Shown piece after piece: positions 1,536 to 38,590 of a stretch of 64,000 bases of DNA. The notes under the pieces are model-generated. The model was not told the origin of the DNA and searched no databases. It saw nothing but the letters and a program-made list of their open reading frames with translations. Source of the DNA: Candidatus Vecturithrix granuli (GTDB taxonomy: Bacteria; Moduliflexota; Moduliflexia; Moduliflexales; Moduliflexaceae); the NCBI GenBank assembly GCA_000739535.1, contig DF820463.1:237554-301553 (forward strand). Reading direction: 5' to 3'. Each line of letters opens with the position of its first letter. Within the stretch, counting starts at the first letter, position 1. Both the position numbers and the translations under genes were made by a program.

Positions 1536-3566
1536 CTAGGCCTTCATCGTGTTCATAGTCGGATTCCTTGCTTTGGGAAAGTTAAACAAGAATGTACTGC
1601 CGTTGCCCAATTCTGATTCAACCCAGATTTTCCCACCATAACATTCTACGATCTTTTTCACAATACTGAGCCCAATACCGGTGCTTTCCAATTCATCGCG
1701 CGGTTGAAGAGTTTGGAAAATCTGGAAAATTTTGTCATGATATTTCGGGTCGATCCCTGGTCCATTGTCAGTCACACTGAACCGCCAGTTTGCGCCAGCC
1801 TCGTCACAGCGGATGGTAATGGTTCCCTGCGGTTTATCCAAAAACTTGATGGCGTTACTCAGAAGATTCTGAAATACCTGGAGGATCCGGGTTCGTTCAG
1901 CGATAATCACCGGTAATGTATTTTCCACTGTAATATGAATATGGTCTGGAGACGCCAGGAGATCGATCACTTCTTGCACCAACACATTCAAATCCAGTTT
2001 CTCTCTGGGTTCGTAAACACGCCCGATGCGTGAATAGTACAGAATCCCGTCAATCAGTCTATCCATACGTTTGACCCGATTGACTAATAAGTCCAACATC
2101 TCCCGTCCCTTTGCATCAAAGATTCTCGCATAATCCGTCTGGATCCAGGAAGCCAGGCTGTTAATACCTCGCAGCGGGGCTTTGAGATCATGAGAGGCTG
2201 CATAGACAAAACTTTGTAATTCTTTATTGGCGGCATCTAGTTGAGCTGTACGCTGGCGGACGCGTTGTTCCAATTCAGTATTGAATCGGAGGACTTCTAA
2301 TTCGGTGCGTTTGCGTTGGGAAATATCTGTAAATATCGTGGCAAATTTTCCATTTTCCGGAGAAAACACGGAAATCTGAAAGTGTTTGTTCATAGGCGAA
2401 AAATAGGTTTCAAATGTCGTGGGTTTTCCGGTGCGCGCCACCTCTGCGTAAACATCCAAATATGGGGCGACGCCTGTGTCATACAGTTCTGACGCCAGCT
2501 TGCCGAGAGCCTGCTCCGCAGGTATCCCGGTAAGCTGTTCAAATTTGGGATTCACATCCAAAATGCAGTAATCAACCGCGCGTCCAGAGGCATCATAAAG
2601 AATTTCATGCAGAATGACGCCTTCACTCATTGTGGTGTACAGGCCTCGAAATTTCCGCTCACTTTCGCGCAGGGCCTGTTCGGCCCGTCTCACTTCCGTG
2701 ATATCAATCGCGGTGCCAGCATACTGTTTTACCTGTCCGTCACGCGTTCGCAGAAACACGGTATCCCACCTATGCAACACGTACCAGTTGCCATTGGCAT
2801 GCCGGATGCGATACTCGATTTCCAGCACTTCATCATCATGAGCCGCCTGTATATGAATGCCATGCGCACTAACGCGGGGCAGATCATCAGGATGAATAAG
2901 CGTTGGAAATAAATTTGCTTGAAAATCAGTGACTTCTTCAGGCGAATATCCAAGCATGCTGAAACTTCTGGCATTCACATAGATATTGCGTTGCTCTTCC
3001 AGATCATAAATATAGACCAGAAAAGGGGCATGATCGAGAATCTGAGCGATAAAATGGTCGCGTTTACGTAGTGCGTCAGCAACACGCTTCCGCTCGGTCG
3101 TATCAATGATAAACCCTTCCAGTCCAATCACCTTGCCTTCTTTGATGACCGGTCTGACGGTAAATGTATGATAGCCGATTGATCCGTCTTTGCAGCGTCG
3201 AGTAAATTCTCCGGAGGGAATCGGTGCTCCGGCCAGTGATCTTTCTACATTGCGCTGCGCGCTCTCGAAATCTGTATCAACCTGCGTTATTGAAAAATGT
3301 TTGCCAAGAATTTCATCGGCGGAAGAATACCCGTGCAGACGTAGCCAGGCGGCGTTGACCTGCCGAAAAATGCCGGCCCGGTCGATGAAAAAATATCCGG
3401 CCTCCGTATCCTCAATAATCTGGCGAAACCGCTCTTCATGCTCTCGCAAACCAACTTCCATCCGTTCCTGATAGGTGATAACCAGGTTTTCTAATTCCGC
3501 ATTGCGCTGTCGTAAGGCCTTGATTTCTTCGCACAGTTGCACATGAGTTTTTTCTTCGTCCTTCAT
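1536..3566 (-). CDS. Cytoplasmic PAS-PAS-PAS histidine kinase
   Basis: A 676-residue sensor kinase with no membrane segment. After a short N-terminal coiled coil (about 1-45) come three PAS domains (about 45-155, 168-295 and 305-420), a coiled linker, a HisKA domain with phospho-accepting His in S-H-D-L-K-A-P-L-R, and a HATPase domain with D-N-G-P-G-I-D and S-T-G-I-G-L-S-I-V-K-K boxes (about 545-665). The core is of the phytochrome-like type often linked to PAS sensors. There is no receiver domain. It is the last gene of a minus-strand chain: its ATG overlaps the stop of the kinase at 3563-6874 by four bases. The first ~40 residues resemble the start of that neighbour, which points to tandem duplication. 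The signal sensed is unknown. Confidence 0.9.
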   Translation of the reverse strand: MKDEEKTHVQLCEEIKALRQRNAELENLVITYQERMEVGLREHEERFRQIIEDTEAGYFFIDRAGIFRQVNAAWLRLHGYSSADEILGKHFSITQVDTDFESAQRNVERSLAGAPIPSGEFTRRCKDGSIGYHTFTVRPVIKEGKVIGLEGFIIDTTERKRVADALRKRDHFIAQILDHAPFLVYIYDLEEQRNIYVNARSFSMLGYSPEEVTDFQANLFPTLIHPDDLPRVSAHGIHIQAAHDDEVLEIEYRIRHANGNWYVLHRWDTVFLRTRDGQVKQYAGTAIDITEVRRAEQALRESERKFRGLYTTMSEGVILHEILYDASGRAVDYCILDVNPKFEQLTGIPAEQALGKLASELYDTGVAPYLDVYAEVARTGKPTTFETYFSPMNKHFQISVFSPENGKFATIFTDISQRKRTELEVLRFNTELEQRVRQRTAQLDAANKELQSFVYAASHDLKAPLRGINSLASWIQTDYARIFDAKGREMLDLLVNRVKRMDRLIDGILYYSRIGRVYEPREKLDLNVLVQEVIDLLASPDHIHITVENTLPVIIAERTRILQVFQNLLSNAIKFLDKPQGTITIRCDEAGANWRFSVTDNGPGIDPKYHDKIFQIFQTLQPRDELESTGIGLSIVKKIVECYGGKIWVESELGNGSTFLFNFPKARNPTMNTMKA

Positions 3567-6500
3567 AGCCGGCCTCCTTGCTTTGGGAAAGTAAACAAAA
3601 ATGTACTGCCGCTGCCCACTTCTGATTCCACCCAGATTTTCCCACCATAAAATTCTACGATCTTCTTAACAATCGCCAATCCCACCCCGGTACTTTCCAT
3701 TTCATCACGCGGTTTGAGCGTCTGGAAAATCTGGAAAATTTTGTTGTGATATTTCGGATCGATCCCCGGTCCATTGTCAGCCACGCTGAATTGCCAGTCT
3801 GCGCCCGCCTCCTCACAGCGAATCGTAATGATTCCCTGGGGTTTATCCAGAAATTTCATGGCGTTGCCGATCAAATTCGCAAATATCTGCTGAACCCGAA
3901 CTATATCGCCAAAAACGAGAGGTAATGCCGAAGCGATGACGACCTGGATGCCTGGAGGCGGGGAGAGCGAATCAATCACGTCTGGCAACAATTGATTGAG
4001 ATCAAGAGGCTCTGCCTGTCCAATGATGCGTCCGATCCGCGAATATTCCAGAACCCCGTCAATCAGGTTATCCATGCGTTTTACCCGGCCCATCAGCAAT
4101 TCAGCCATCTCCTGGCCTTTGGCATCAAACGCCTCGGCATAGTCATCGAGTAACCACTGAACCAGCCAGTTGATAGCACGTAACGGAGCTTTCAAGTCGT
4201 GTGAGACGATGTAGGCAAAACTCTGGAGTTCTTTATTCACAGCTTCAAGTTTGGCCGTGCGTACATGCACACGTTGTTCTAATTCGGCATTGAGGGTACG
4301 GATGGCTGCCTCAACCTGCTTGCGTTCAGTGATGTCGCGCGCAACGGCATAGATCATCTTCTCGCTCGGATACGATCTCCATTCGATCCAGCGATATGAG
4401 CCATCTTTGCAACGGTAGCGGTTTTCAAAATTCAGAATTTGGTTCTGGCTTGCAAGTTGTGAGAGGGCCGCAACCGTCGCGTCAAGATCTTCCGGATGCA
4501 CGAATTCGAGGAATTGTCGGCCTTCGAGTTCGGCAATGGTGTATCCTAACGTGGTTTCCCATTCAGGATTCAACCGACGGAAATATCCATCAGTATCAGC
4601 AATGCACAGGAGATCAAGGCTTGATGTAAAGTACCGATCAAGTTCCGCCGTTTTGGACTGGAGGGCTTGCTCCGCCCGCTTACGTTCGGCAATGAACCGC
4701 GCCTGTTGCACATTCTGATAAGCGGATGTGGAAAGCTGATTGGCCAGCACAAACAGAACCTGGGCTACTCGCTCGAATTGCTCCTGCGACATGATGGGCA
4801 CTTTGCGATAGGCGGCGCGAAACGCGGTTTCGTCTGCACCGATCTCGCGGGCGTATTGCATGATTTCTTCCTCATTCTGCGTTTCGTTCCGGACCTGGCC
4901 AATCAGCCAATTGGCGATATGACGTCCACCGACGGAGATGCTTGCCCCAGCATTGCACAGGCCGGCGCTCAGGCACGGTTGGATGTTAGGGCCGGAGGGA
5001 TTGTACTTTCCGATCATTGCATCCGAGTAATTACAGTTTTTGAGGCCCTTTGACGTTTTGCGAATGATGTCGCCACAGAGTTCGCTGAAATTACTCGGTT
5101 GCGTGATCGGTGTCCCGTCCGGCCTCGTAATCAGGGCCGCGACGCCGAAAGCCTTGGCATACAGGTCTTGCAGATGTTGGATATCCGCCAGATTGAACAA
5201 ATCTTCAAATGCGATGCCCTCGGCGGTCTCCATCGGTCGGGTTAAGGCCACGATGCGTTTTTCGAGCGCTTCCTCAATTCGCTTGCGTTCGGTAATGTCG
5301 CGCGAAACGCCGAGAATAGATTTCACCTGACCAGCCTCGTCTTTGATGGGAACCAGCCATGTCCCCAGCCACATCCTCTGGTTCGGAAACTGGGTCGGAT
5401 TTTCAATGTACACGGGTTGGCCGGCTTCGAAAACCTGGCGTAAGCTGTCCTTTTGGTGTTCAGCATCACTGGATCGGAAGAGTTCAGCCTGGGATCTGCC
5501 GATGATTTCTTCGGGCAAGCGTCCGAGCTGTTGGGCCGCAAAACGATTGACATAGTCAACCGTTCCATCACGATTGAGGATAAAGATCATGTCGTGCGCT
5601 GCCTCGGCGAGCAAGCGATAGCGCTCTTCACTTTCGCGCAACGCCGCCTCCATTTGCTTGCTCTCGGTGATGTCTTTCACAAGTGCGGAAAACTTTCCTT
5701 CATCAGGCTTGAAGGCATACACTTCAAAATACCTGTTATAGATTTTTGAAGGGAAGGTGTAGTTTTCAGGGATGCCAGTCAGCGCAACGCGCTTAAAACA
5801 ATCCAGCCAGCCGGATTCTGGATCGGGAGGCACCAGTTCATTATACGTTTTCCCGATGAGTTGTTCTTGTTGTAAACCTATGATGTGTTCAAATGCCGAA
5901 TTGACATCAAGATACATGAAATCGCATGGCATCCCATCTTCATCGTAAAGTATCTGCGCTACATAGAACCCCTGGCCCATGGACTTAAATAACATTCGGT
6001 ATTTTAATTCATTTTCAACCAGGGCTTCTTCTGCCCGCTTGCGGTCGGTGACGTCACGACCTACGGCCTGTAGCTCGACAACTTGACCATGTTCATTGCG
6101 AATACATTGGACAACCCATTGAATCCAACACTCTTTGCCATCATGCCGGTAATTCAGGTACTCACCTATGATCTGTCTGGGGTTCCTGGCCAGATTTTCA
6201 GTTTCTTGCCGGACGAGATCACGGAATTCAGGCGCGACCATAAACACATAACTCTGCCCAATCAATTGTTCACGGGTTTTGCCATAAAACCGGCAGTACG
6301 CATCGTTCACAAATGTCAGTGTGGTATCTGGTCGGTATCGGCTGATCAGGTCAACCTGGCTTTCGATGACAGCCCGGTAGCGCGCCTCGCTCTCGCGCAG
6401 GGCCGCTTCCATCTGCTTGCGTGCGGTGATGTCACGTGAGACTGTGTGAATTTCCACGATCTCATCGGTCTGTTCAGCACGGATGGCATGGCTGGTGGTT

Positions 6501-6874
6501 TCGAACCAGATGTACATCCCATCTTTCCGGCGGATGCGGTAACTCACGGTAGATACCGTTGGCTGTTCAAGAACCGTGGCATGGGAGGCCGCAATGGCCG
6601 CCCGATCCTCAGGGTGGAAAAATTCATACGCCGAATGTCCCACGAGGTCTTCCGGATCATATCCAAGTAACGGGCGACAGGCGGGGGACGCGTACAGATA
6701 CACTCCGTCTGGGGTATGGCAGCAAATGAGATCGGTTGAATTCTCAACCAGTAAACGGAATCTGGCCTCAGCCTGGCGATGTTCCGCTGCCTGAGCTTCT
6801 AATTCAGCATTGCGCTGCCGTAACATCGTCATTTCTTCAAGCAACTCTGCGTAAGTTTTTGCTTCGTCGTTCAT
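3563..6874 (-). CDS. Multi-PAS histidine kinase with an internal PocR ligand-binding domain
   Basis: A 1103-residue soluble sensor kinase. Domains in order: N-terminal coil, four PAS domains (about 38-545), a PocR-type domain (about 555-720, starting around F-E-D-L-F-N-L-A-D-I and containing the Cys-bearing C-L-S-A-G-L-C segment), a fifth PAS (about 740-860), HisKA (S-H-D-L-K-A-P-L-R) and HATPase (D-N-G-P-G-I-D; S-T-G-V-G-L-A-I-V-K-K). PocR domains are known from regulators of propanediol/cobalamin metabolism and from sensors near methanol-type methyltransferases, where they are thought to bind small organic ligands. That fits the corrinoid methyltransferase genes upstream in the same block. 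It overlaps both neighbouring kinase genes by ATGA, so translation is probably coupled. Confidence 0.88.
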   Translation of the reverse strand: MNDEAKTYAELLEEMTMLRQRNAELEAQAAEHRQAEARFRLLVENSTDLICCHTPDGVYLYASPACRPLLGYDPEDLVGHSAYEFFHPEDRAAIAASHATVLEQPTVSTVSYRIRRKDGMYIWFETTSHAIRAEQTDEIVEIHTVSRDITARKQMEAALRESEARYRAVIESQVDLISRYRPDTTLTFVNDAYCRFYGKTREQLIGQSYVFMVAPEFRDLVRQETENLARNPRQIIGEYLNYRHDGKECWIQWVVQCIRNEHGQVVELQAVGRDVTDRKRAEEALVENELKYRMLFKSMGQGFYVAQILYDEDGMPCDFMYLDVNSAFEHIIGLQQEQLIGKTYNELVPPDPESGWLDCFKRVALTGIPENYTFPSKIYNRYFEVYAFKPDEGKFSALVKDITESKQMEAALRESEERYRLLAEAAHDMIFILNRDGTVDYVNRFAAQQLGRLPEEIIGRSQAELFRSSDAEHQKDSLRQVFEAGQPVYIENPTQFPNQRMWLGTWLVPIKDEAGQVKSILGVSRDITERKRIEEALEKRIVALTRPMETAEGIAFEDLFNLADIQHLQDLYAKAFGVAALITRPDGTPITQPSNFSELCGDIIRKTSKGLKNCNYSDAMIGKYNPSGPNIQPCLSAGLCNAGASISVGGRHIANWLIGQVRNETQNEEEIMQYAREIGADETAFRAAYRKVPIMSQEQFERVAQVLFVLANQLSTSAYQNVQQARFIAERKRAEQALQSKTAELDRYFTSSLDLLCIADTDGYFRRLNPEWETTLGYTIAELEGRQFLEFVHPEDLDATVAALSQLASQNQILNFENRYRCKDGSYRWIEWRSYPSEKMIYAVARDITERKQVEAAIRTLNAELEQRVHVRTAKLEAVNKELQSFAYIVSHDLKAPLRAINWLVQWLLDDYAEAFDAKGQEMAELLMGRVKRMDNLIDGVLEYSRIGRIIGQAEPLDLNQLLPDVIDSLSPPPGIQVVIASALPLVFGDIVRVQQIFANLIGNAMKFLDKPQGIITIRCEEAGADWQFSVADNGPGIDPKYHNKIFQIFQTLKPRDEMESTGVGLAIVKKIVEFYGGKIWVESEVGSGSTFLFTFPKQGGRL

Positions 6875-9519
6875 GGCCGTTCTCCTGACTTCGGAAATGT
6901 AAAAAAGAAGGTACTTCCTTTGCCTGTCTGAGATTCTACCCAGACCTTCCCGCCATAAAATTCCACAATCTTTTTCACAATCGCTAACCCCACCCCGGTA
7001 CTTTCCACTTCATCGCGTGAATGGAGCGTCTGGAAAATCTGAAAAATTTTCTCATGATATTTCGGATCGATCCCTGGCCCATTGTCAGCCACGCTGAATT
7101 GCCAGTCCGCGCCAGCATCCTCACAGCGAATCGTAATGATTCCCTGGGATTTATCCATAAATTTCACGGCGTTACCGAGCAAATTCGCGAACACTTGTTG
7201 AATGCGAACAATATCACCAAAGATGACGGGCAAGGCAGAGACAATGCTGATCTGGATATTTGGAGGCGGGGCGAGCGAATCAATCACGTCTGGCAATACG
7301 TGCTGAAGCTCTATCGGCTCGGCGTGAACAGCCATGCGTCCGATCCGCGAATAGTCCAGAATCCCGTTAATCAGGTCGTCCATCCGTTTGACCCGACCAA
7401 TCAAGAGTTCAACCATCTCGCTGCCTTTGGCGTCAAAGACCCCGGCATAATCCTCGACCAGCCACTTGACCAGCCGATTGATAGCGCGTAACGGCGCTTT
7501 GAGATCGTGGGAGACCACATAGGCAAAACTCTGAAGCTCTTGATTCGCGGTCTCAAGCTCGGCGGTGCGGTCGCGTACCCGCTGTTCCAATTCGGCGTTG
7601 AGACTGCGAATTTCTTCTTCGGCCCGCTTGCGGTCGGTAATGTCGAGAACTGTGAACGTCACTCCCCTGGAAAGATCCGTAAGGTCAATCGGAGTGGATG
7701 CGAGCAGGATATCGATGATGGAACCGTCTTTTTTCTGCCAACGTGTCTCGACAGCCCCGCTACCTTTTTGGGCGATCTGTTTATACTTTTCTTTTCCGAC
7801 AAATTCAAAGTCTTCCTGTGTGGGATATAACACCCTGGCGCTTTGTCCAATTAATTCTTCTTTAGCGTAGCCTGTCATTTCACAGATACGAGAATTGACA
7901 TCGAGCAGGACCCTGTTACTGACAACCCCAATCCCGGTTGGGGCAATACGAAAGATGCTGCGCATCTTTTCTTCGCTCTTGCGCAGAGACTCTTCCATCT
8001 GCCTGCGATCTGTGATGTCACGAGCCGCAGCATAGATGAGACTCCCCGACGGCTGTGAACGCCATTCAATAAAGCGATAGGAACCATCCATGCAACGATA
8101 GCGGTTTACAAAATTCAACACCTGTTCCTTTGCACCCAATTGTGACATTGCCTTCAGTGTGGAATCCATATCTTCAGGATGGACAAACTCCAGAAATTTT
8201 CGGTGTTCAAGTTCAGAAGTAGAATATCCAAGAATTGATTCCCAGGCCTTGTTTACCTTGATAAAATTACCCTCAATATCGGCGATACATAGCAAATCAA
8301 GATTCACAGAAAAGAATTGTTCCAGTTTTTCTTCCGCACGCTTGCGCTCGGTGATGTCTTCCGAAATACCCAGAAGATATGCCGGATTCCCATTTTTGTC
8401 CAGGATGGGGATTTTTTTCGTATGCAAGATTCTTTCGCCGTGATTCTTTGTCAGGATAAATTCTTCAGGAATATCACGCAAGGTTTTATGATCAAGCACA
8501 TCCCGATCGTATTTGGTAAAAAAATCCGCCTCATGCTTTGGAAAAAAATCGTGGTCACTTTTCCCAAGGAGTTCCTGTCTGGAATAGCCTAACAGCGTTT
8601 CGCCAGCTTTATTAAGTCGTACAAACCGAAGTTCTCTGGCCTCTTTCACAAAAATCATATTGGGGATATTCTCCACAATGTTATGGAGAAATTCCTCGCT
8701 CTCGCGCAATGCCTCCTCCGCCCGTTTGCGTTCAACTATATCGCGTTGAATAGTGTCGAATTGCGCTTCAATTTGTTCAAAATTTTGATGTAACTGTTGC
8801 GCCATCCGATGAATGGCGTCAGCCAATTGGCCGATTTCATCATGCTGAGAAAACTGAAAGGATTGGTCAAAATGACCAGCGGCAATCGCTTTCGTCACAT
8901 TGACCAGTGTTGCAAGCGGAGTCACAATCGATTTTTTCCCGATGACATACGCAAGGACAAACACGCCAATAAACACGAGCAACGAAAAAAAACTCACAGC
9001 CATAAAATAGACGTGACGCTGCTGAAACATGGTGGTTTGGGGAAGCGAAACGCCGATTAACCAATCCCACGTCTCAAGATACTGATAGACAGTGAAATAT
9101 ATCACTCCTTCCTGTCTAAAATTGGTCGCTCCAGACGTTGTTTCAAACATCTCCTTGAGTACGTCATCGCTGATGTTCAGGTCCTGTCCTGTCTTTGGGT
9201 GTAAAAGCGACTGATGTTCCTTTCCTGTAATAATATAATACTGCTCAGTCTGGGCAGCTATCTGTTCTTGAAGTTTTTGCAGCATCTCGGTTTGCGCCTG
9301 GCGCACATATTCTGCAATTCCGGTCGCGCCCGACTCTTCTAAGATTTTGACGACTGTTTCAATTTTTTCAACCTGCATCGCTAATTTCAATGAAAGGAGT
9401 TCCGTATTCAGTCTGTAAATGATGGTATTGATCACCCTGGTTCCAATGCCCACAGTCACAACAAGCAACACCAGGAGCATCGCTGCCATAAACACGATAA
9501 GCTTCGCTTGAATGTTCAT
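6871..9519 (-). CDS. Membrane-bound Cache-HAMP-PAS histidine kinase
   Basis: 882 residues. A transmembrane helix at about 7-28, a periplasmic Cache-like sensor (about 35-170, containing Y-Y-I-I-T-G-K and a W-D-W-L-I-G-V strand), a second helix at about 172-192 and a HAMP linker (about 195-250) place the sensor outside the inner membrane. Then follow three PAS domains (about 270-640), a coiled coil, HisKA and HATPase closely resembling the two downstream kinases. The start codon has a strong AAGGAGAAGGG site. A Cache domain suggests direct detection of a small extracellular ligand such as an organic acid or amine, but the ligand cannot be named. The gene heads a three-kinase ATGA-linked chain, separated from the next upstream kinase by a nested inverted repeat. 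Confidence 0.9.
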   Translation of the reverse strand: MNIQAKLIVFMAAMLLVLLVVTVGIGTRVINTIIYRLNTELLSLKLAMQVEKIETVVKILEESGATGIAEYVRQAQTEMLQKLQEQIAAQTEQYYIITGKEHQSLLHPKTGQDLNISDDVLKEMFETTSGATNFRQEGVIYFTVYQYLETWDWLIGVSLPQTTMFQQRHVYFMAVSFFSLLVFIGVFVLAYVIGKKSIVTPLATLVNVTKAIAAGHFDQSFQFSQHDEIGQLADAIHRMAQQLHQNFEQIEAQFDTIQRDIVERKRAEEALRESEEFLHNIVENIPNMIFVKEARELRFVRLNKAGETLLGYSRQELLGKSDHDFFPKHEADFFTKYDRDVLDHKTLRDIPEEFILTKNHGERILHTKKIPILDKNGNPAYLLGISEDITERKRAEEKLEQFFSVNLDLLCIADIEGNFIKVNKAWESILGYSTSELEHRKFLEFVHPEDMDSTLKAMSQLGAKEQVLNFVNRYRCMDGSYRFIEWRSQPSGSLIYAAARDITDRRQMEESLRKSEEKMRSIFRIAPTGIGVVSNRVLLDVNSRICEMTGYAKEELIGQSARVLYPTQEDFEFVGKEKYKQIAQKGSGAVETRWQKKDGSIIDILLASTPIDLTDLSRGVTFTVLDITDRKRAEEEIRSLNAELEQRVRDRTAELETANQELQSFAYVVSHDLKAPLRAINRLVKWLVEDYAGVFDAKGSEMVELLIGRVKRMDDLINGILDYSRIGRMAVHAEPIELQHVLPDVIDSLAPPPNIQISIVSALPVIFGDIVRIQQVFANLLGNAVKFMDKSQGIITIRCEDAGADWQFSVADNGPGIDPKYHEKIFQIFQTLHSRDEVESTGVGLAIVKKIVEFYGGKVWVESQTGKGSTFFFTFPKSGERP

Positions 9520-9613
9520 CCCTTCTCCTTTTGTACTATGAAAACCTCACTATTCAAAAGAGTAACCAAACTCATGTTACGTAATCCCCTCACCCCCTGC
9601 CCCCTCTCTGAGA

Positions 9614-9729
9614 GCAGGGCTGTTAAGTTCTGTGGGTGTTTGTGTCATCTCGACTTCGCTCGATGACCGGAACACCGCACGTCGAGCGAAGTCGAGACGC
9701 TATATTTTGCGAGAACTTAACAGCCCTGC
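9614..9729. repeat. Nested inverted repeat between two kinase genes
   Basis: An outer perfect 18-bp inverted repeat (9614-9631 with 9712-9729, GCAGGGCTGTTAAGTTCT) encloses an inner perfect 16-bp one (9648-9663 with 9682-9697, TCTCGACTTCGCTCGA). The flanks (about 9585-9613 and 9730-9765) are C-rich then G-rich and resemble the long inverted repeat at 25221-25324. The inner core GAGCGAAGTCGA recurs at 48459-48560. It looks like a small non-autonomous element. Confidence 0.8.
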
Positions 9730-9803
9730 CTCTCCAAAAGGGCGAGGGGGGAAAGAGAGGGTAACCATTATTTTACAAAATGCATTGACCATTGCCTCTT
9801 TTT

Positions 9804-11450
9804 TTAAAAGGACTCTGATTTTTTGGGCACAGTAAAATAAAAGGTGCTTCCCTGCCCTATGGTGGATTCGACCCAGATTTTCCCGCCATATAGTTCCACG
9901 ATCTTTTTCACAATTGTCAGTCCGATTCCGGTGCTTTCGAATTCATCGCGCGGTTGAAGGGTTTGGAAAATCTGGAAAATTTTGTCATGATATTTCGGAT
10001 CGATCCCCGGCCCATTGTCAACTACGCTGAACCGCCAATCTGCACCAGCATCCTCACAACTGATGGTAATAATTCCTCGGGGTTTATCCATGAATTTCAT
10101 AGCATTGCCGATGAGATTGGCAAAGATTTGTTGAATACGAGTAGTATCCCCAAGAATAAGGGGCAATTCTGAGGCGATGGCGATCTGAATATTCGGCGGC
10201 GGCGTCATGGAATCAATCACCTCCGGCAGGAGTTGATTGAGATCAATAGACTCGAGATGGCTATCAACGCGTCCGATCCGAGAGTATTCCAGAATACCAT
10301 CTATCAGATTATCCAGCCGTTTTACTCGACTAATCAGTAGATTCACCATGTCTTGTCCCTGAGCATCAAAGGCGGAGCCATAATCTTCCAGCAGCCATTG
10401 CGACAGTTTGGCGATCGCCCGCAAGGGGGCTTTTAAATCATGCGAGACGATGTAGGCAAAACTTTGGAGTTCATTGTTGGCAACCTCCAGTTCGGCGGTG
10501 CGTTCATGCACGCGTTGTTCTAATTCTACATTAAGTCTGTGCACTTCTTCTTCAGCCTGCTTGCGAGCGGTTATATCGGTGACGATGCCTTCCAATGCAA
10601 TGGGCTTGTTTTCAGTATCACGAATGAGAACATTACGTTGATTAACCCATTTGATATCGCCAGATTTGTGGATGATCTGATATTCATACTCTGGCGGCAG
10701 GTCGCCCTGTAAAAGTTTTTCCCACTGAAATGCAAAATATGTCTGCCAGTCCGGATGAATTATTGTGCGAATCAGCTCGGGGTTGGCGTACCATTCTTCG
10801 GGCATGTAGCCCGAGAGGTCGGCGGCGGCCGGACTGATATATTCGTAGCGCCCCTCAGGAAGCAGCATCCGATAGATCATGTCCTTCGCATTTTCTGCCA
10901 GCCGTCGGAAACGCGCCTCACTTTCTCGTAGGGCTTCTTCAGCCTGTTGCCGCTCGCTGATTTCTTGTTGGAGTCGCTGATTCGTCCGCACAAGTTCGTT
11001 GGTACGCTCGCGGACCTTCTGTTCTAATTGTTCATTCAGGTGGTGCAAGCGCACGTGGGTAACGATCCGCGCCAGGACTTCTTCTTGTTGCAAGGGTTTG
11101 GTGATATAATCTACGGCCCCGGCCTGGAACGCCCGAACTTTATGTTCGATATCAGTTAACGCCGTCATAAAGATGACGGGGATGTCCCTGGTATCAACCC
11201 GTGTTTTCAGCATGCGGCAGGTTTCAAACCCATCAATCTCCGGCATCATAATATCCAGCAGAATCAGGTCTGGATGGGCGCGTTGCGCTTTGTCAAGACC
11301 GGATTTCCCATCCCAGGCCACCAGAATTTTTACCGGATATTTTTTCAAATATACGGCCAGCATGTCCAAATTCATGGGCTCATCATCGATCAGTAAAAGC
11401 ACCTTATCCTGAAGAACAGAATGATATAAATGCTGAAGCATACTCTCCAT
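9804..11450 (-). CDS. Receiver-PAS-histidine kinase (inverted hybrid)
   Basis: 548 residues, soluble. An N-terminal receiver domain (about 17-130: L-L-I-D-D-E, phospho-acceptor Asp in L-I-L-L-D-I-M-M-P, Lys in I-T-K-P-L) is followed by a coiled coil, one PAS domain (about 172-297, PAS_3 type), HisKA with S-H-D-L-K-A-P-L-R and a HATPase domain. A receiver placed before the kinase suggests it is a phosphorelay intermediate that takes phosphate from another kinase, perhaps one of its neighbours, and changes its own kinase output. No DNA-binding output domain is encoded by it or its neighbours. The catalytic half is nearly paralogous to the kinases on both sides. Confidence 0.9.
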   Translation of the reverse strand: MESMLQHLYHSVLQDKVLLLIDDEPMNLDMLAVYLKKYPVKILVAWDGKSGLDKAQRAHPDLILLDIMMPEIDGFETCRMLKTRVDTRDIPVIFMTALTDIEHKVRAFQAGAVDYITKPLQQEEVLARIVTHVRLHHLNEQLEQKVRERTNELVRTNQRLQQEISERQQAEEALRESEARFRRLAENAKDMIYRMLLPEGRYEYISPAAADLSGYMPEEWYANPELIRTIIHPDWQTYFAFQWEKLLQGDLPPEYEYQIIHKSGDIKWVNQRNVLIRDTENKPIALEGIVTDITARKQAEEEVHRLNVELEQRVHERTAELEVANNELQSFAYIVSHDLKAPLRAIAKLSQWLLEDYGSAFDAQGQDMVNLLISRVKRLDNLIDGILEYSRIGRVDSHLESIDLNQLLPEVIDSMTPPPNIQIAIASELPLILGDTTRIQQIFANLIGNAMKFMDKPRGIITISCEDAGADWRFSVVDNGPGIDPKYHDKIFQIFQTLQPRDEFESTGIGLTIVKKIVELYGGKIWVESTIGQGSTFYFTVPKKSESF

Positions 11451-11483
11451 CGTTTTATCGCATTCCTTCCTTATGAAAATTTA

Positions 11484-12941
11484 CTACTTTACCCCTTGTT
11501 TGGGAAGACTAAACCAGAATGTGCTCCCATTACCAACTTCTGACTCTACCCAGATTTTCCCGCCATGTAACTCTATGATTTTCTTCACAATACTCAGGCC
11601 GACGCCCGTGCTTTCCTGGTCATCATGTGGTTTCAGGGTTTGGAAAATTTGAAAAACCCGATCATGATATTTCGGATCGATCCCTGGTCCATTATCGGAT
11701 ACACTGAATTGCCAAAAGACTCCGGCATCCAGCCATTCGACCGTGATTTCCCCTCTCGGCTTATCCATGTACTGGATAGCATTCCCGATCAAATTCTGAA
11801 ATACTTGCAAAATACGGACTTTATCGGCGACAATTACGGGGAATCCGGGTTGTAGTGCGATACGAATGGCTGGCGGCGGGCTTAGAATCTCAAGTACCTC
11901 TTGCAACATCAGATTCAGATCAATATGCTCAGCATTCCCCACTACTCGCCCCACACGAGAATATTCCAATACCCCATCGATTAAGTTATCCATCCGTTTC
12001 ACACGTTTCAACAGTAACTCTATGTATTGTTGGCCTTGCTCATCAAATGCTGAGGCATAATCTTCGACCAGCCAGTGTGTAATCTGAGCAATTCCTCGCA
12101 ATGGAGCTTTCAGGTCGTGTGACACGACATAGGCGAAATTCTGCAACTCCTGATTGGCAGTTTCAAGTTCAACGGTGCGTTGCTGCACCCGTTGTTCTAA
12201 CTCAGCGTTGAGGGTACGGATCTCCTCTTCTGCTTTTTTGCGCTCAGCAATTTCAGCTTTCAGGTTTACATTAGTTCGGGCTAATTGCTTTGTCCGTTCT
12301 GCAACCAGTATCTCTAATTCATCACGCGCCCGGCGCAGTTGTTCCTCAGCATGCTTACGTACAATGATCTCCTGTTCCAATTGATCATAAGCCTTTTTGA
12401 GCCGGGAAGAACTCTGAATCTCGTTTTTCAACACCAGAGCAGCGTAATTCAAAAATGACTGCAATTGCTCCTGGACTGAAGACGCAGTCATCAACATATC
12501 CTCCATTTTGAGGACCGCAATCAGATCCGTGCCGACCAGAAGCGGGAAGACCCATGTGGATGCCTTCGTAAATTCAGGCATGATCAACTTTGTATCGCCG
12601 AATGCATGATCATATTCTACAAATGTACGTGTTTCAAATACACGTTTCACAAGTGGATCTACGATGTCTTCGATGCCGGCGAGTTCCTTTCCTTTCCCAT
12701 AGGCATCGGCAAAATAGATCTCCTGATCGATCAGATAATAGATGCTGACATTAGTGCCGCCGATACTTTCAATGACGGTGTGCACGATATTCTCAACCAC
12801 GTTTTCGAGACCGGATACATCGCTTAATTTCTTGACCAGAGTGTAGATTAACTGAGAGTATGATTTTTCCACCGCCATTTTTTTGAGGCGTGCTTGCAGA
12901 TGAAGCCACTCATCTTGAGGGACGGTTATCATTTCTGACAT
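11484..12941 (-). CDS. GAF-type histidine kinase
   Basis: 485 residues. The N-terminal ~190 residues have a GAF-like fold pattern (V-V-E-N-I-V-H-T-V-I-E-S-I-G-G-T, then W-V-F-P-L-L-V-G-T-D-L-I-A-V-L-K). A long coiled coil (about 190-255), HisKA (S-H-D-L-K-A-P-L-R-G) and HATPase follow. GAF domains bind small molecules, haem or redox cofactors; no diagnostic ligand residues can be seen. It starts with GGAGGAAC six bases before ATG 12941, and this start lies inside the end of the DUF1638-type gene (13-base overlap). That overlap physically ties the sensor array to the methyltransferase genes. Confidence 0.88.
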   Translation of the reverse strand: MSEMITVPQDEWLHLQARLKKMAVEKSYSQLIYTLVKKLSDVSGLENVVENIVHTVIESIGGTNVSIYYLIDQEIYFADAYGKGKELAGIEDIVDPLVKRVFETRTFVEYDHAFGDTKLIMPEFTKASTWVFPLLVGTDLIAVLKMEDMLMTASSVQEQLQSFLNYAALVLKNEIQSSSRLKKAYDQLEQEIIVRKHAEEQLRRARDELEILVAERTKQLARTNVNLKAEIAERKKAEEEIRTLNAELEQRVQQRTVELETANQELQNFAYVVSHDLKAPLRGIAQITHWLVEDYASAFDEQGQQYIELLLKRVKRMDNLIDGVLEYSRVGRVVGNAEHIDLNLMLQEVLEILSPPPAIRIALQPGFPVIVADKVRILQVFQNLIGNAIQYMDKPRGEITVEWLDAGVFWQFSVSDNGPGIDPKYHDRVFQIFQTLKPHDDQESTGVGLSIVKKIIELHGGKIWVESEVGNGSTFWFSLPKQGVK

Positions 12942-13528
12942 GACAGTTCCTCCATTTTGCGCATGATCGTTGTCTGCAAAATTGATTCAAGATGATCGAG
13001 TGAGACATCCATCCATCGCAGCGGCAGTCCCACGATATCGGCGACTTCTTCGGCCTGAGTCGTAAAATCCTCGGAACAAGGAGTTCTGAGAGCGAGCAGG
13101 TAAGTGTGGTGACACTGGAAAATGTACTTCACACCTTTAGAGTTGTTTCCGGATATTTTGTTCGTTATCTCATTCCAGCGCCGCGCCCAGTCTTCCACCA
13201 GAAAGAAGGCCCTCTGAGAAAGCTCTTGCGTAAATACTGCCGGCCCCAGAAGAATATCCAAGCAGTTCTGGCCGGAAGTCCGGAAGGTGGCCGCATCTTC
13301 GAGCATCTGGTCCATGAGGGGATGGCAGCAGCCATAAAATACGATGATGTTGCGTCCGTGGTAGGCCCTCAAGACAGCGGTGAGACCGCGGGCCAGTTTA
13401 TCAAAATCAACGTGGAGGGCCGAATTCAGAAAGATCGCCTCCACCGGCCATTGATTTTTCTCAATCAACCATCGAATTTCCCTTTTGAGAATCCCGCACC
13501 CGACAAGCAGAAGTTTCTGGTTATTCAT
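12929..13528 (-). CDS. DUF1638-type protein of a corrinoid methyltransferase locus
   Basis: About 199 residues. The sequence (L-L-L-V-G-C-G-I-L-K-R-E-I at the N-terminus, V-F-Y-G-C-C-H-P in the first half, conserved Cys and His later) matches my recollection of DUF1638, a family of unknown biochemistry found beside methylamine/methanol-type methyltransferases. ATG 13528 is preferred to the in-frame ATG 13534 because GAGG sits six bases upstream of it. Three Cys/His-rich spots (G-C-G, Y-G-C-C-H, Q-C-H-H) would suit metal or corrinoid handling, which is inference. It overlaps the following GAF kinase gene. Confidence 0.7.
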   Translation of the reverse strand: MNNQKLLLVGCGILKREIRWLIEKNQWPVEAIFLNSALHVDFDKLARGLTAVLRAYHGRNIIVFYGCCHPLMDQMLEDAATFRTSGQNCLDILLGPAVFTQELSQRAFFLVEDWARRWNEITNKISGNNSKGVKYIFQCHHTYLLALRTPCSEDFTTQAEEVADIVGLPLRWMDVSLDHLESILQTTIMRKMEELSCQK

Positions 13529-13578
13529 CGTCATCCTCTTTTTTCATAAGTATCCGGACAAAATTCATAGTATCAGTT

Positions 13579-13755
13579 GGAGTGTCAAAGCTCTGCTTTG
13601 ACAGCGAAAGCAGAGCTTTCGCACTCCTGCATAGTATCCTTTGGAGTGTCAAAGCTCTGCTTTGACAGCGAAAGCAGAGCTTTCGCACTCCTGCATAATA
13701 TCATTTGGAGTGTCAAAGCTCTGCTTTGACGGCGAAAGCAGAGCTTTCGCACTCC
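13579..13755. repeat. Three tandem copies of the 49-bp double-hairpin repeat
   Basis: Copies lie at 13579-13627, 13643-13691 and 13707-13755, an exact 64-bp period with 15-bp AT-rich spacers. Each has an outer stem GGAGTG/CACTCC around two perfect hairpins, TCAAAGCTCTGCTTTGA and CGAAAGCAGAGCTTTCG, joined by CAG (CGG in the third copy). The two arms are also largely complementary to each other, so a single long hairpin is the alternative fold. The third copy overlaps the end of the methyltransferase gene. Confidence 0.95.
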
Positions 13756-14789
13756 TGCGGTCTCAAGCTGCCAAATTCATAAGCCGCTTCAAGCATTGTG
13801 TTGATGTTCTCTTCTGGAATGCAATAGGGCATTCCCATTGTTCCGAATACGAACTTCCCCCCCGGCATCCCGGCCTCAAGAATTCGTTTGACCTCACACC
13901 GGATCTCGTCGTGTGACCAATCAATGAGCTTGAGATCATTCAGGATGCCGACGGTTAAAGCTCGTCCGGCGATAATGCGCTTGCCCTCAACAACATCGTC
14001 GAAGGGACTCAGGTTATATGCGGTTATTCCTGTTCTTTCGATCACTACATCGAGCACCGCATTCATGCGTGACGTGCCGCAATAATAGACCAATCCCTCT
14101 GCGCCAACCGCGTTGACGTCCTTTTCAATCCAGGGCAGCGCGTGTTCCCGAAAAAACTTCAGCGGAATTGTATCGGTCGAGCCAAAGGGATTTGAATACA
14201 CCAGCGCATCGGCGCCGGCCTTGCGATAGGCGGCCATTTCTCGCGTAAAAAATTCATGGCACTTTGACAACAATTCATCGCGCAAATCCGGCGGCCCCCA
14301 CAACAGTAATTCCAACCATTTCTCCATGCCCATCAACAGAACTGGCAGCGTCATGGAAGATGTGATGTAGGCTACAATCGAATATTTCCCACCGACTTCA
14401 GCTTTCAAGAGGCGCAGACAGGTTAGTTCTTCCTGGAAAGCCGGGTGATCGATGATATTGTCAGGAATCTGGAGTTTGGGAATATCCTCATAGCTCTTGA
14501 TCACAAAATCTTGCACATTGGGAGGGCCGTCTTGGGCGAAGAGAATCTTACGGCATCCTAACAGTTCAGCTTCCTTCCCAACATAAAAAAGACTCCAGAC
14601 ATTGTCGTATCCGTATTTTTCCCGCATACGGATTTGCCCTTCAGCGACATATTCCCCTTTTGCATAATATTCCTGAAGCGACATCCCCAGTTCTTTAGCT
14701 CCCTGATCCACCAGATTACAGAAGACAGGGATGCGATCCAATATTTCCCCTTTGATCGCAGCATTCAGCCGTTCTATTCCAGTGATCAT
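13713..14789 (-). CDS. Uroporphyrinogen-decarboxylase-fold corrinoid methyltransferase (MtaA-like)
   Basis: 358 residues of the UroD/MtaA family, whose methyltransferase members move a methyl group between a corrinoid protein and a thiol or tetrahydrofolate. The N-terminus (M-I-T-G-I-E-R-L-N-A-A-I-K-G) is typical. The family zinc motif H-x-C...C appears changed: Y235-Y236-C237 with C323 in P-Y-C-I-P, so the usual His is Tyr. Start ATG 14789 has AGGAGGTG and overlaps the corrinoid-protein stop by ATGA, so the two are co-translated partners. The last residues (E-C-E-S-S-A-F-A-V-K-A-E-L) and the stop are encoded by the third copy of the 49-bp repeat, which has replaced or extended the natural C-terminus. 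It could be an O-demethylase component; the substrate is unknown. Confidence 0.82.
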   Translation of the reverse strand: MITGIERLNAAIKGEILDRIPVFCNLVDQGAKELGMSLQEYYAKGEYVAEGQIRMREKYGYDNVWSLFYVGKEAELLGCRKILFAQDGPPNVQDFVIKSYEDIPKLQIPDNIIDHPAFQEELTCLRLLKAEVGGKYSIVAYITSSMTLPVLLMGMEKWLELLLWGPPDLRDELLSKCHEFFTREMAAYRKAGADALVYSNPFGSTDTIPLKFFREHALPWIEKDVNAVGAEGLVYYCGTSRMNAVLDVVIERTGITAYNLSPFDDVVEGKRIIAGRALTVGILNDLKLIDWSHDEIRCEVKRILEAGMPGGKFVFGTMGMPYCIPEENINTMLEAAYEFGSLRPQECESSAFAVKAEL

Positions 14790-15451
14790 CGGCGCACCTC
14801 CTTGATCAGTTCGGTAATCACGCTTCCGGCCGCGATCCCGTTCGCGGCCCAGGCGTCGGCCTGCACAGTTTTGTACAAGTTGTGATCAAAACAATACGGC
14901 GCGCCTCCGACAATAATTTTGATCTTTTCTTCGAGGCCGCCTTCTTTCAAAAGCTGGCGTACTTTGCGACAGCCGTTTTCCCCTCGGGCGGTATGAACCA
15001 TCATGGCCGAAATTCCAATGACTTGCGCATCGTGAGCAAGCGCCTCGGCCACAAAGCATTCAGGCTCGACATTCACCCCTAAATCCGTAACATCAATCAT
15101 GAGCGCTGTCAGGCAGCCCGCCACAATCCGCTTGCCGAGCGAGTGTAAATCGCCTTCGGCTGTCCCGATGACGATATGGCCGGCCGCAACCGGCCGCTTT
15201 TTAAATTTCGAAATCATTTCATCCGTGATTTCCAGCGCGATCTGAGAACTCATAAATTGTTGCGCCAGATTGATTTCGAAGCCCTCGCCAACAGCTTTTT
15301 CAAATTCTAACACCGTAGGCAGGACAAGCTTGAAGAGAATATCTTCCGGAGCAAAGCCCTCTTGCAAAGCCGCATGCACGACTACCAATGCTCTTTCCCG
15401 GTCAGTATCGAAAAGGGCTTCCTTATACGCCGTCAATAGCTTGTCAATCAT
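14786..15451 (-). CDS. Corrinoid (B12-binding) protein, MtaC/MtbC type
   Basis: 221 residues. A helical B12-binding cap (about 1-85) precedes a Rossmann B12-binding domain with the hallmark D101-L-H103-S-L-G106 (lower axial His ligand) and later V-G-G-A-P-Y, as in methanol, methylamine and aromatic O-demethylase corrinoid proteins. It carries the methyl group on cobalamin between the substrate methyltransferase and the second methyltransferase. It has an AGGAGGT site before ATG 15451, follows the activator gene by 15 bases and overlaps the methyltransferase gene by four. Confidence 0.93.
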   Translation of the reverse strand: MIDKLLTAYKEALFDTDRERALVVVHAALQEGFAPEDILFKLVLPTVLEFEKAVGEGFEINLAQQFMSSQIALEITDEMISKFKKRPVAAGHIVIGTAEGDLHSLGKRIVAGCLTALMIDVTDLGVNVEPECFVAEALAHDAQVIGISAMMVHTARGENGCRKVRQLLKEGGLEEKIKIIVGGAPYCFDHNLYKTVQADAWAANGIAAGSVITELIKEVRR

Positions 15452-15466
15452 AGCGTACCTCCTATT

Positions 15467-17089
15467 TTAGTCCATTGATATTGGTTGAAGATAGAGATGC
15501 TCGATGAACAGGTTTTCATAGATCGGGTCAGAGGACATATTGATTATTCTGGCCTTCCTTCTCAGCGACTTCAATATGCTTGTGTTATCAGAGCAAAGCA
15601 GCATCTCAGCCCCGGCTAATGCGGTATTCCCGCAGAGTTCGACATGTTCAGGAGCAATGCCTGGTAAAAGGCCGATAGCCTGAGCATTTGAAACATTCAA
15701 GAATCGTCCGAACGCCCCGCATACGCAGACGCGCCGTATTTCTCTGGGATACAGATCGGCTTGTTTTAGCAAGCAGGTTATTCCGGCGCCTATGGCCGCC
15801 TTCGCCCGCTGGAACATGTCAACATCCTGTTTGTACAGCACAATGTCTCGCGATCCCTTCAGAATGCAAAAACCTTCATGGCCGAGATTCCCGGTAAATA
15901 GACCATTACGTTTCAATTCTCCGCTCTGACACAGGCTTCCAATAATATCCACCAGGCCGGAGCCACATACGCCGCACGCCTGGCCGCCGCCGATCACCTC
16001 AATCTGCAAGTTGGAAGAGTCGCCTCTATGGTCAGCCCTGTAAATTGCTCCCGGTTCTGCCGGCATACCGCAACTGATTCCCCAGCCTTCAAAAGCGGGC
16101 CCCCCGGCGGCTGATGTCACCCATAATTGCATGCCATCCCACAAGGCGATTTCAGAATTAGTGCCAAAATCGATCAGAAGCGACCCGGCCGCCCCCTGAG
16201 TCAGTTGTGTGGCAAGCACACCTGCCAGCAGATCGGAACCCACGAAGCCTGCCAATGGCTGAACGATTTCGATGACCGCGCTTTCATGACATTCCCAGGA
16301 GCGACGCCAGGAATCTGTGTCGTCAGGCTGGCAATTGATCTCCCGCATCCAGTACTCAGGATGAAGCAACAGGTGAGCATTCCGTTCTGCCAACAGCGCC
16401 AACATGGCGCTATTTCCCACAATCATTATGTGCCCGATAGCCTGACTGTTCCAACCGCCTTCAGACAGCATATCCCGCAGCGCCCCTCCGATGGCATCCC
16501 GCGCTAATCCTCCGATTTCCCGCATCCGGTCTGGCGATTCGGAGGCGTTTACCAATCGCGTGAGCACATCAGTTCCGAAGCAACTCTGGGGATTCAGCCC
16601 CACGCGTCCTGCCAGCCGTTGCTTTTTTTTCATGTCCCAGAGGGAAAGACGAATTTGCGTGGTGCCTAAATCTACAGCGACGCCATAGGAGGGGTGCTTC
16701 TGAGTGGATGTTGAAATGCTCTGGGTCGAAAGGTCAAACGGAGTGTATTCGTCTTCAAGAAGGCTTCGCCAGGAAGCTTGAGGCACAGAACGTTCGATCC
16801 TTATCCGTACATTCTGGCACGGTCTGACCTGACATGCCAGACGCATTCCCTGAGCAAGCTGATCCGATGCCAGTTTATGTAGTTCGTTGGGTGTGGGATC
16901 ATTCACACACCCTGCTTCAACGCCCACAAGACATTGACCACAGATACCAATTCCTCCGCAGGCTGATCGGAGTCGTAGAGGAGTGGAAGCGAGGATTTCA
17001 TGAATCGAAAGGCCAGGCAAAAATGAGATGCGATGTTCGCCATCCGTCATGACAATCTGCATCACGAAGGACTGGCTATCTTTTTCCAT
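15467..17089 (-). CDS. Corrinoid activation/regeneration protein (ASKHA, RACo-type, [2Fe-2S])
   Basis: About 540 residues. The N-terminal plant-type ferredoxin domain has cysteines C44, C50, C53 and C86. The rest is a DUF4445/ASKHA ATPase with G-V-A-V-D-L-G-T-T-Q, L-L-I-D-F-G-T-N-S-E and G-P-A-F-E-G. Such proteins use ATP and a low-potential electron to reduce Co(II) corrinoid back to Co(I) after accidental oxidation. The frame is open to 17155, but ATG 17089 follows GAGAGAGGGTGG and begins just before the ferredoxin fold. It is the first gene of the methyl-transfer operon and directly precedes its natural substrate, the corrinoid protein. Confidence 0.93.
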   Translation of the reverse strand: MEKDSQSFVMQIVMTDGEHRISFLPGLSIHEILASTPLRLRSACGGIGICGQCLVGVEAGCVNDPTPNELHKLASDQLAQGMRLACQVRPCQNVRIRIERSVPQASWRSLLEDEYTPFDLSTQSISTSTQKHPSYGVAVDLGTTQIRLSLWDMKKKQRLAGRVGLNPQSCFGTDVLTRLVNASESPDRMREIGGLARDAIGGALRDMLSEGGWNSQAIGHIMIVGNSAMLALLAERNAHLLLHPEYWMREINCQPDDTDSWRRSWECHESAVIEIVQPLAGFVGSDLLAGVLATQLTQGAAGSLLIDFGTNSEIALWDGMQLWVTSAAGGPAFEGWGISCGMPAEPGAIYRADHRGDSSNLQIEVIGGGQACGVCGSGLVDIIGSLCQSGELKRNGLFTGNLGHEGFCILKGSRDIVLYKQDVDMFQRAKAAIGAGITCLLKQADLYPREIRRVCVCGAFGRFLNVSNAQAIGLLPGIAPEHVELCGNTALAGAEMLLCSDNTSILKSLRRKARIINMSSDPIYENLFIEHLYLQPISMD

Positions 17090-17139: not shown

Positions 17140-17306
17140 ATCGGAAATAGAACACTGATGGGACTGATTGAACTGATCTCTACTGATTTTTCGAGAAGAG
17201 TGACGTATGCTCCATGCTGTTCTCATGATCATGAACCGTGTCCTGAATTCATCGTCATATCAGTGAGCATCAGCCCAATCAGTCCCATCAGTGTTCTATT
17301 TCCGAT
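17140..17306. repeat. Perfect 31-bp inverted repeat upstream of the corrinoid operon
   Basis: Arms 17140-17170 and 17276-17306 are exact reverse complements (left arm begins ATCGGAAATAGAACACTGAT) separated by 105 bp. The interior holds further short imperfect palindromes around CATGATCATG. It fills the gap between the nitroreductase and the corrinoid activator, so it may carry or disturb the operon promoter, or be a MITE-like insertion. Confidence 0.85.
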
Positions 17307-32372: not shown

Positions 32373-32407
32373 AAAACCAGATTTCTTCGAAGAAACCTGG
32401 TTTTTTG
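32373..32407 (+). terminator. Rho-independent terminator
   Basis: AAAACCAG with CTGGTTTT, closed by TTTCTTCGAAGAAA, followed by a T run. It follows the transglutaminase-like gene and resembles the palindromes at 44295, 45969 and 55991. Confidence 0.8.
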
Positions 32408-32431
32408 TCCTGGCAGGGAACAGGTGTCAAC

Positions 32432-38541: not shown

Positions 38542-38590
38542 GGAGTGCGAAAGCTCTGCTTTCGCTGCAAAAGCAGAGCTTTTGCACTCC
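38542..38590. repeat. 49-bp double-hairpin repeat, compensatory variant
   Basis: GGAGTG, hairpin CGAAAGCTCTGCTTTCG, CTG, hairpin CAAAAGCAGAGCTTTTG, CACTCC. Relative to the other copies both hairpins have changed bases on both arms, keeping pairing. It sits between two convergent genes, where a terminator would be expected. Confidence 0.95.

Follow-up and report, generated by a model that had tools for sequence, protein, structure and literature searches.

A corrinoid, URO-D-fold and DUF1638 cassette joined to histidine kinases or diguanylate cyclases is most likely a sensor front end

In methanogens, the sensor kinase MsmS is tied to methyl-sulfide corrinoid methyltransferase genes, which this haem-binding protein regulates—a point of difference from the cassette described here. 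Type 1 mlp clusters (Kountz and Balskus, PMC10418091) hold codirectional genes for MtaA-like URO-D proteins (Mlps, at least two per cluster), a corrinoid protein and a Ram/RACo activator, with no H4folate methyltransferase nearby. URO-D-fold proteins are the substrate-specific methyltransferases of O-demethylase and chloromethane systems, and CdmB and the Moorella MtvB combine this fold with a separate corrinoid partner and a dispensable MtaA zinc site (PMC13222342). Canonical DUF1638 acts alongside a RamA-like activator and a corrinoid protein in B12 reactivation for the split methionine synthase of Phaeobacter; the role there is biosynthetic and involves no kinase or GGDEF protein, and fitness data tie the domain to RamA-dependent reactivation (PMC5764234). 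Corrinoid-binding domains also act in signalling, in CarH and the photocobilins, some with a GGDEF output, and neither URO-D nor DUF1638 is part of those systems (PMC11796333).

We analysed a window of 64,000 nucleotides, the whole stretch of Candidatus Vecturithrix granuli DNA under study. The initial annotation had placed an activator, a corrinoid protein, an MtaA-like protein, a DUF1638-type gene and five histidine kinases on one strand, and all of these genes were confirmed, on the minus strand (Table 1).

Table 1. Features of the minus-strand array and its intergenic repeats
Feature	Positions	Strand	Evidence or remark
RACo/RamA-like corrinoid reductive activator	15467-17089	-	2Fe-2S + RACo middle + ASKHA domains
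Corrinoid-binding protein	14786-15451	-	PF02310, E 3.7e-20
URO-D-fold methyltransferase-like (MtaA-like) protein	13713-14789	-	PF01208, E 5.1e-43
Three tandem 64-nt REP-like palindromic units	13566-13757	.	between URO-D and DUF1638 genes, into URO-D 3' end
DUF1638, divergent 'sensory' subtype	12929-13534	-	PF07796, E 2.3e-29
HK1: GAF-like sensor + HisKA + HATPase	11484-12941	-	domain search
HK2: receiver + PAS + HisKA + HATPase	9804-11450	-	domain search
Inverted-repeat (MITE-like) element, 158 nt	9593-9750	.	fills HK2-HK3 gap
HK3: periplasmic Cache-like (weak) + HAMP + PAS x3 + HisKA + HATPase	6871-9519	-	
HK4: several PAS + PocR + PAS + HisKA + HATPase	3563-6874	-	
HK5: PAS repeats + HisKA + HATPase	1536-3566	-	

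The activator gene, for which an alternative GTG start is possible at 17155, encodes PF14574 (E 1.3e-62), PF17651 (E 3.7e-32) and PF00111 (E 1.7e-7), and the presence of both the RACo middle and the C-terminal ASKHA domains marks its product as RACo/RamA-like. Neighbouring genes overlap by 4 bp at the corrinoid/URO-D, HK3/HK4 and HK4/HK5 junctions, and the overlap previously noted between the DUF1638 and kinase genes amounts to 13 bp, with HK1 starting inside the DUF1638 gene. Dispersed repeats occupy the two wider gaps of the array, and further copies of the 64-nt unit lie in the window and at other loci of the genome. A consensus promoter and terminator scan gave site counts not above those of shuffles and is uninformative on transcription units.

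As in type 1 mlp clusters, the corrinoid and Ram genes are codirectional within 2 kb, and a profile search detected no H4folate methyltransferase within 20 kb; the window differs in adding DUF1638 and kinases and in having one URO-D protein, and identity with this cluster type, for which at least two Mlps are required, was rejected. The URO-D protein, 60% identical to its nearest relative, lacks the MtaA zinc-ligand set (His-x-Cys plus a later Cys): these ligands are not conserved in its alignment with 4ay7, where Y235 stands at the His position, C237 is kept and the third ligand is absent. It resembles CdmB and MtvB in fold, in its separate corrinoid partner and in this altered site, but no acceptor methyltransferase accompanies it, and the tie is to signalling outputs instead. 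The array contains neither MttB nor MtaB, as had been stated, and a genome-wide search located one MttB, on another contig. By analogy, this absence should be no gap in the system, because URO-D-fold proteins themselves act as substrate-specific methyltransferases (PMC13222342).

Within the 8.4-Mb genome, URO-D-family matches number 33, and among 20 such loci inspected as a control only that of the window has corrinoid, DUF1638 and kinase neighbours. The same contig carries, ~78-90 kb further left, a second cluster of DUF1638, RACo, corrinoid, URO-D and methyltetrahydrofolate (MeTHF) methyltransferase genes, in which DUF1638 is canonical. When the MeTHF methyltransferase of this genome was used to build a profile, neither the window nor the 19.5 kb beyond its left end gave a match, a search that distant homologues could escape.

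Scanning ~85,000 genomes with the window URO-D protein alone yielded 283 confirmed relatives, of which the best 80 were examined. These best 80 of the 283 loci span many bacterial phyla and some archaea; a corrinoid gene adjoins the URO-D gene in 77 of them and a divergent DUF1638 domain lies downstream in 65, while three of the 15 loci without it stop less than 300 bases from the URO-D gene. DUF1638 is fused to an output in 56 of the same best 80 loci (histidine kinase, 41; GGDEF diguanylate cyclase, 15), against a background of 8.9% histidine kinase or GGDEF genes in those loci (binomial P ~2e-42). RACo was present in two of these 80 and a MeTHF methyltransferase in one, so that, again unlike type 1 mlp clusters, most cassettes have no activator beside them. 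A separate search with a DUF1638 profile recovered the same cassettes, including corrinoid-URO-D-[DUF1638...GGDEF] arrangements amid unrelated flanking genes. The constant part of the cassette is corrinoid, URO-D and DUF1638, and its output swaps between histidine kinase and GGDEF. Gene order in relatives, whose comparison the initial annotation had proposed, thus shows the three components next to kinases or GGDEF proteins, or joined to them by fusion, in many phyla. The combined terms corrinoid, URO-D, kinase and GGDEF retrieved no description of such a cassette from the open-access literature, and it is apparently undescribed so far.

In the window, a same-strand corrinoid/URO-D pair is followed directly downstream by divergent DUF1638 and the adjoining HK1; this is a split-gene, RACo-equipped form of the cassette. 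Its closest relative, in Candidatus Lambdaproteobacteria (L129/L030), reads corrinoid-URO-D-DUF1638-GAF-HK-REC with a divergent RACo, and linkage to HK1-type kinases is seen again in L129 and L130. A URO-D tree with chosen comparators grouped 46 cassette URO-Ds, the window protein among them (branch support 99), and united the window with L129 and L130 (support 100). The nearest relatives examined, from the same family and order, carry no DUF1638 of the sensory subtype. RACo is wholly absent from 11 of 30 cassette-bearing genomes tested, and Co(I) cycling is therefore not general; the RACo kept in the window form would also fit a working enzyme, which counts against a sensor.

The window DUF1638 passes the Pfam gathering score (102.8 bits versus 27; PF07796) and scores 290 bits against a cassette-DUF1638 profile built from four seeds, itself included, versus 21 for canonical DUF1638. 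Its conserved candidate metal ligands C13, H41, C70 and C91 suggest that the domain likely holds a metal or Fe-S centre. The predicted model has pLDDT 89 and pTM 0.85; because a fold search gave no match at E <= 0.001 and none with Z of 8 or more, the fold offers no tie to a known function. The portions of the open-access literature on DUF1638 that we covered mention no link to kinases.

All five kinases retain intact H, N, G1 and G2 boxes, placing them among HisKA kinases. Their cores, 59-76% identical, are mutually closest copies in a genome with 90 kinase-core matches, indicating that the five arose from one core by local duplication and differ in their sensor domains. HK1 is modelled with a GAF-like order of elements (~residues 45-170, predicted structure), and this region is colinear with, and weakly similar to, the segment that follows DUF1638 where homologues are fused (HHalign probability 16%); since matches in the fold comparison were dominated by kinase cores, the GAF assignment is based on the order of elements and the weak profile match. 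HK2-HK5 have no counterparts in the nearest cassettes. The PocR domain reported for a later kinase lies in HK4 (residues 558-719, E 2.5e-48); PocR was dropped as a cassette component, because the ten extra kinases that accompany other cassettes all lack it. The initial annotation had found no response regulator with an output domain and placed the receivers elsewhere: HK2 does lack an output domain, but carries a receiver of its own (residues 19-129, E 3e-28), so the latter statement is half right.

The cassette is most likely a sensor front end and not a catabolic operon with regulators, because it recurs without a catabolic pathway and its DUF1638 is usually fused to an output. The proposal of a sensory network for methylated-compound use accordingly holds in its link between methyl transfer and signalling, which recurs across many phyla, but probably not in any picture of an operon placed under kinases. 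We lean towards a sensory role in which a ligand or methyl donor is perceived at the corrinoid/URO-D pair; that methyl transfer is the actual signal is a more tentative idea. A catabolic or methyl-salvage operon under kinase control, its methyl groups leaving through the MeTHF methyltransferase of the second cluster, seems unlikely to us. The tightly linked RACo, the canonical cluster and MttB elsewhere in the genome, and the existence of zinc-free URO-D-fold methyltransferases such as CdmB and MtvB (PMC13222342) would suit such an operon, but RACo and acceptor methyltransferases are missing near the cassette's relatives, DUF1638 is fused to kinase or GGDEF, and the output type varies while the other three components stay together. 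A chance neighbourhood, in which kinases expanded locally beside an unrelated methyl-transfer operon, could draw on the kinase-rich genome, on HK2-HK5 being unseen beside other cassettes and on the near relatives without the sensory subtype; it is nevertheless very improbable given the 13-bp overlap and an HK1-type linkage repeated in L129, L130 and, fused, in dozens of loci of many phyla.

The corrinoid proteins bear on a further alternative. The window protein has an intact DxHxxGK motif (D101, H103, G106), and H103, G106, S148, G182 and G183 are invariant among 87 corrinoid proteins from the loci compared. In 80 of these 87 the CarH-like GxxW position holds a Trp, which would not be expected of a plain methyl carrier; GxxW is a motif of light-responsive B12 domains (PMC11796333). 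The corrinoid protein might thus sense light, redox or cobalamin state, with URO-D as a non-catalytic scaffold and no methylated ligand, in keeping also with the genomes without RACo, the changed zinc ligands and the phototrophs among the hosts (Allochromatium, Thiocapsa). We consider this improbable: the cassette corrinoid proteins lack the EH motif seen in CarH-type photoreceptors, many hosts are anaerobes of dark sediments, and the window form, besides having RACo, no longer has the Trp. For want of the EH motif, CarH-type photoreceptor identity was set aside, and the output, unlike in CarH and the photocobilins, is not on the B12 protein. Points that sit less well with sensing of a ligand or methyl donor are the weak HK1-GAF similarity, the corrinoid Trp, the solitary HK2-HK5 and the RACo-less genomes.

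For a sensor cassette of the window type, we can sketch a route. RACo would reduce the corrinoid protein to Co(I), as known for the RACo/RamA family; URO-D would bind a methylated compound and either pass its methyl group to the corrinoid or merely hold the ligand. DUF1638 might then read the corrinoid or methylation state and contact the HK1 GAF region, as DUF1638-kinase fusions in relatives support, altering HK1 autokinase activity. HK2-HK5 could converge on a shared downstream regulator or act on one another, the HK2 receiver being a candidate internal acceptor. In general form this might be a new mode of perception, possible though far from assured: given a methylated compound, a dedicated URO-D methylates the corrinoid, and a metal-bearing DUF1638 reads the methylated or demethylated corrinoid and switches a kinase or diguanylate cyclase.

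If the sensor reading is correct, a recurrent three-gene set that Pfam-based annotation would label corrinoid methyltransferase/uroporphyrinogen decarboxylase is a widespread sensor family, DUF1638 gains a role, C1/corrinoid chemistry is joined to two-component and c-di-GMP signalling, and metabolic predictions that count cassette URO-D genes as catabolic need correction. Hosts include Chloroflexota, Bacteroidota, Desulfobacterota, Geobacteraceae, cable bacteria, purple sulfur bacteria, Spirochaetes and methanogen-related archaea. Cultured among them are Geomonas limicola, Geomonas diazotrophica, Geomesophilobacter sediminis, Allochromatium humboldtianum and Thiocapsa marina, which make the sensor hypothesis testable.

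Gene calls and domain matches on the window bore out the gene order of the initial annotation, which runs on the minus strand, from upstream to downstream, through a RACo-type corrinoid reductive activator, a corrinoid protein, an MtaA-like methyltransferase-fold protein (URO-D), DUF1638 and five histidine kinases (HKs): HK1 (GAF-like), HK2 (receiver-PAS), HK3 (weak Cache, HAMP, PAS), HK4 (PAS, PocR) and HK5 (PAS). Genes overlap at corrinoid/URO-D, HK3/HK4 and HK4/HK5 (4 bp each) and at DUF1638/HK1 (13 bp). Two wide gaps, of 178 and 284 bp, are mostly occupied by repeats, so the operon was perhaps more compact until these inserted. One holds a palindromic REP-like unit, which also supplies the URO-D protein's C-terminal residues and is dispersed at other genome loci; the other holds a MITE-like element whose inverted ends measure 39 nt and which has an internal inverted repeat of 23 nt. 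The downstream end faces a convergent hydrolase-like gene. Upstream of the array, 171 bp from the GTG start of RACo, the same strand carries a nitroreductase-like gene with weak matches only (SagB, BluB, Acg families).

Coordinates of features in the window and at compared loci
Location	Positions	Feature
Window	1536-17089	Activator to HK5 array, minus strand
Window	9593-9750	MITE-like element, HK2-HK3 gap
Window	12929-13534	DUF1638 gene, minus strand
Window	13566-13757	Three tandem copies of 64-nt REP-like unit, URO-D/DUF1638 gap
Window	near 38543, 38589, 42054	Further REP-like units
Window	17327-18220	Nitroreductase-like gene
Window	32405-38106	Hybrid kinases, HK-receiver then receiver-HK
Window	57466-59454	Hybrid kinase, HK-receiver
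L017 (own genome, C21:148000-167000)	6095-13637	Second methyl-transfer cluster
L196	5562-11742	Two URO-D genes
L160	2442-7478	Two URO-D genes
L194	7974-11208	Two URO-D genes

The DUF1638 of the window belongs to a divergent subtype, and its closest relative among 385 sampled genomes (47%) lies in genome G353, at a locus ordered corrinoid, URO-D (60% identical to the window URO-D), DUF1638 and GAF-HK-receiver, with RACo divergent. In two weaker matches from that sample the DUF1638 domain is part of a GGDEF protein, and one of these two genes immediately follows a corrinoid gene and a URO-D gene. A profile built from these four sequences found corrinoid, URO-D and a DUF1638-HK-receiver protein in G353 relatives, and corrinoid, URO-D and a DUF1638-GGDEF protein in several genomes of the phylum of genome G063, which named matches of a URO-D search suggest to be Chloroflexota.

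That search covered a separate genome collection with the URO-D protein alone, neighbours playing no part in selection, and gave 309 pattern matches, 283 of them confirmed. Among the best 80 of the 283, a corrinoid gene adjoins URO-D in 77 loci (73 upstream, 4 downstream), a DUF1638 domain follows URO-D in 65, and DUF1638 is fused to a kinase in 41 and to GGDEF in 15; in a few, DUF1638 and output are split as in the window. With 76 as denominator, to account for loci truncated close to the URO-D gene, 56 such fusions against a background HK or GGDEF share of 8.9% among other genes of the 80 loci give a chance P of ~2e-42, a guide only, as genes are partly dependent. The window methyl-transfer genes belong to a recurrent cassette, most likely one for signalling. 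Since 19 of the 80 loci have an additional gene of the kinase, receiver or GGDEF type right beside the cassette, accompanying kinases also recur, but the window's five-kinase array does not.

This array is a local expansion of a single kinase core with exchanged sensor parts, because core identities are 59–76% pairwise and the closest genome-wide matches to the HK1 core lie within the array (61–100%); two other kinases (57% and 54%) and a 93-residue fragment (59%) follow before identity falls to 34%, among 90 kinase-core matches in the genome. All five retain their H, N and G boxes, and they likely share output specificity. Further hybrid kinases in the window fall outside this lineage.

A quick maximum-likelihood tree separated 46 cassette URO-Ds from 23 comparators (mostly own-genome URO-Ds, one other-genome URO-D in two copies, MtaA and HemE) with support of 99, and grouped the window URO-D with those of L129 and L130 (support 100); since similarity was the criterion for collecting the cassette set, the result establishes no more than the window URO-D's membership in that set, and not that all signalling URO-Ds form one clade. 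The own genome, whose assembly has a stated contamination of 10.75%, contains 33 URO-D-family matches, and profiles revealed no corrinoid, DUF1638 or kinase neighbour within ~1.5 kb of any of the 19 others inspected. Its second cluster, ~78–90 kb left of the window, is a canonical methyl-transfer system comprising a URO-D-like protein, a corrinoid protein, a MeTHF methyltransferase, RACo, a canonical DUF1638, a GntR-like regulator (judged from the start of its sequence) and a second corrinoid protein.

As DxHxxG is kept in 86 of 87 cassette corrinoid proteins, and GG is kept too, these very likely bind a corrinoid. The MtaA zinc set is not kept in cassette URO-Ds (mostly His, Ala, His; in the window clade Tyr, Cys, none), and MtaA-like thiol methylation is unlikely; catalysis may still be possible, since zinc-free URO-D methyltransferases, such as CdmB and that of the Moorella O-demethylase, are known (PMC13222342). 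Cassette and canonical DUF1638 forms share C13, C70, C91 and a fourth position, which is Cys in the majority of cassettes and His in canonical forms; in the window, a His aligns within one or two residues of it. This set probably constitutes a metal or Fe-S site, of which we found no prior description. In Phaeobacter, a canonical DUF1638 shows cofitness with both a RamA-like activator and a split methionine synthase (PMC5764234), which fits DUF1638 as a protein touching corrinoid proteins.

Building on the observed genes, linkage, fusions and conserved motifs, we propose that the corrinoid/URO-D pair would perceive a methylated compound and that DUF1638 would, by contact, couple perception to the kinase; in the window, multiplication of the kinase lineage would let several other cues join, presumably at a shared response regulator. 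A catabolic operon with attached kinases as its regulators, as first read, predicts that relatives keep the activator and acceptor methyltransferase and may lose the kinase. The compared loci show the reverse: the kinase or GGDEF link is kept, yet RACo occurs in 2 and MeTHF methyltransferase in 1 of the best 80 loci (flanks ≤8 kb, absence meaning absence nearby), which disfavours that reading. RACo is present somewhere in 19 of 30 cassette-bearing genomes and in none of the other 11, and is hence no universal cassette part. The corrinoid protein might instead sense light, redox state or cobalamin; of the B12-photoreceptor signature motifs GxxW and EH (PMC11796333), most cassette corrinoid proteins keep the former and not the latter. 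Counting this option in, we are fairly confident that the cassette has some sensory role; we lean towards a methylated-ligand sensor, and regard actual methyl transfer as the signal as rather doubtful.

All protein families involved are known and the kinase and GGDEF outputs are standard; what appears to be new is the input module, for which we found no published description in the open-access literature, the only literature searched. Three compared loci, possibly double-input cassettes, carry two URO-D genes next to DUF1638 or to the end of the contig; those of L196 form two corrinoid-URO-D pairs.
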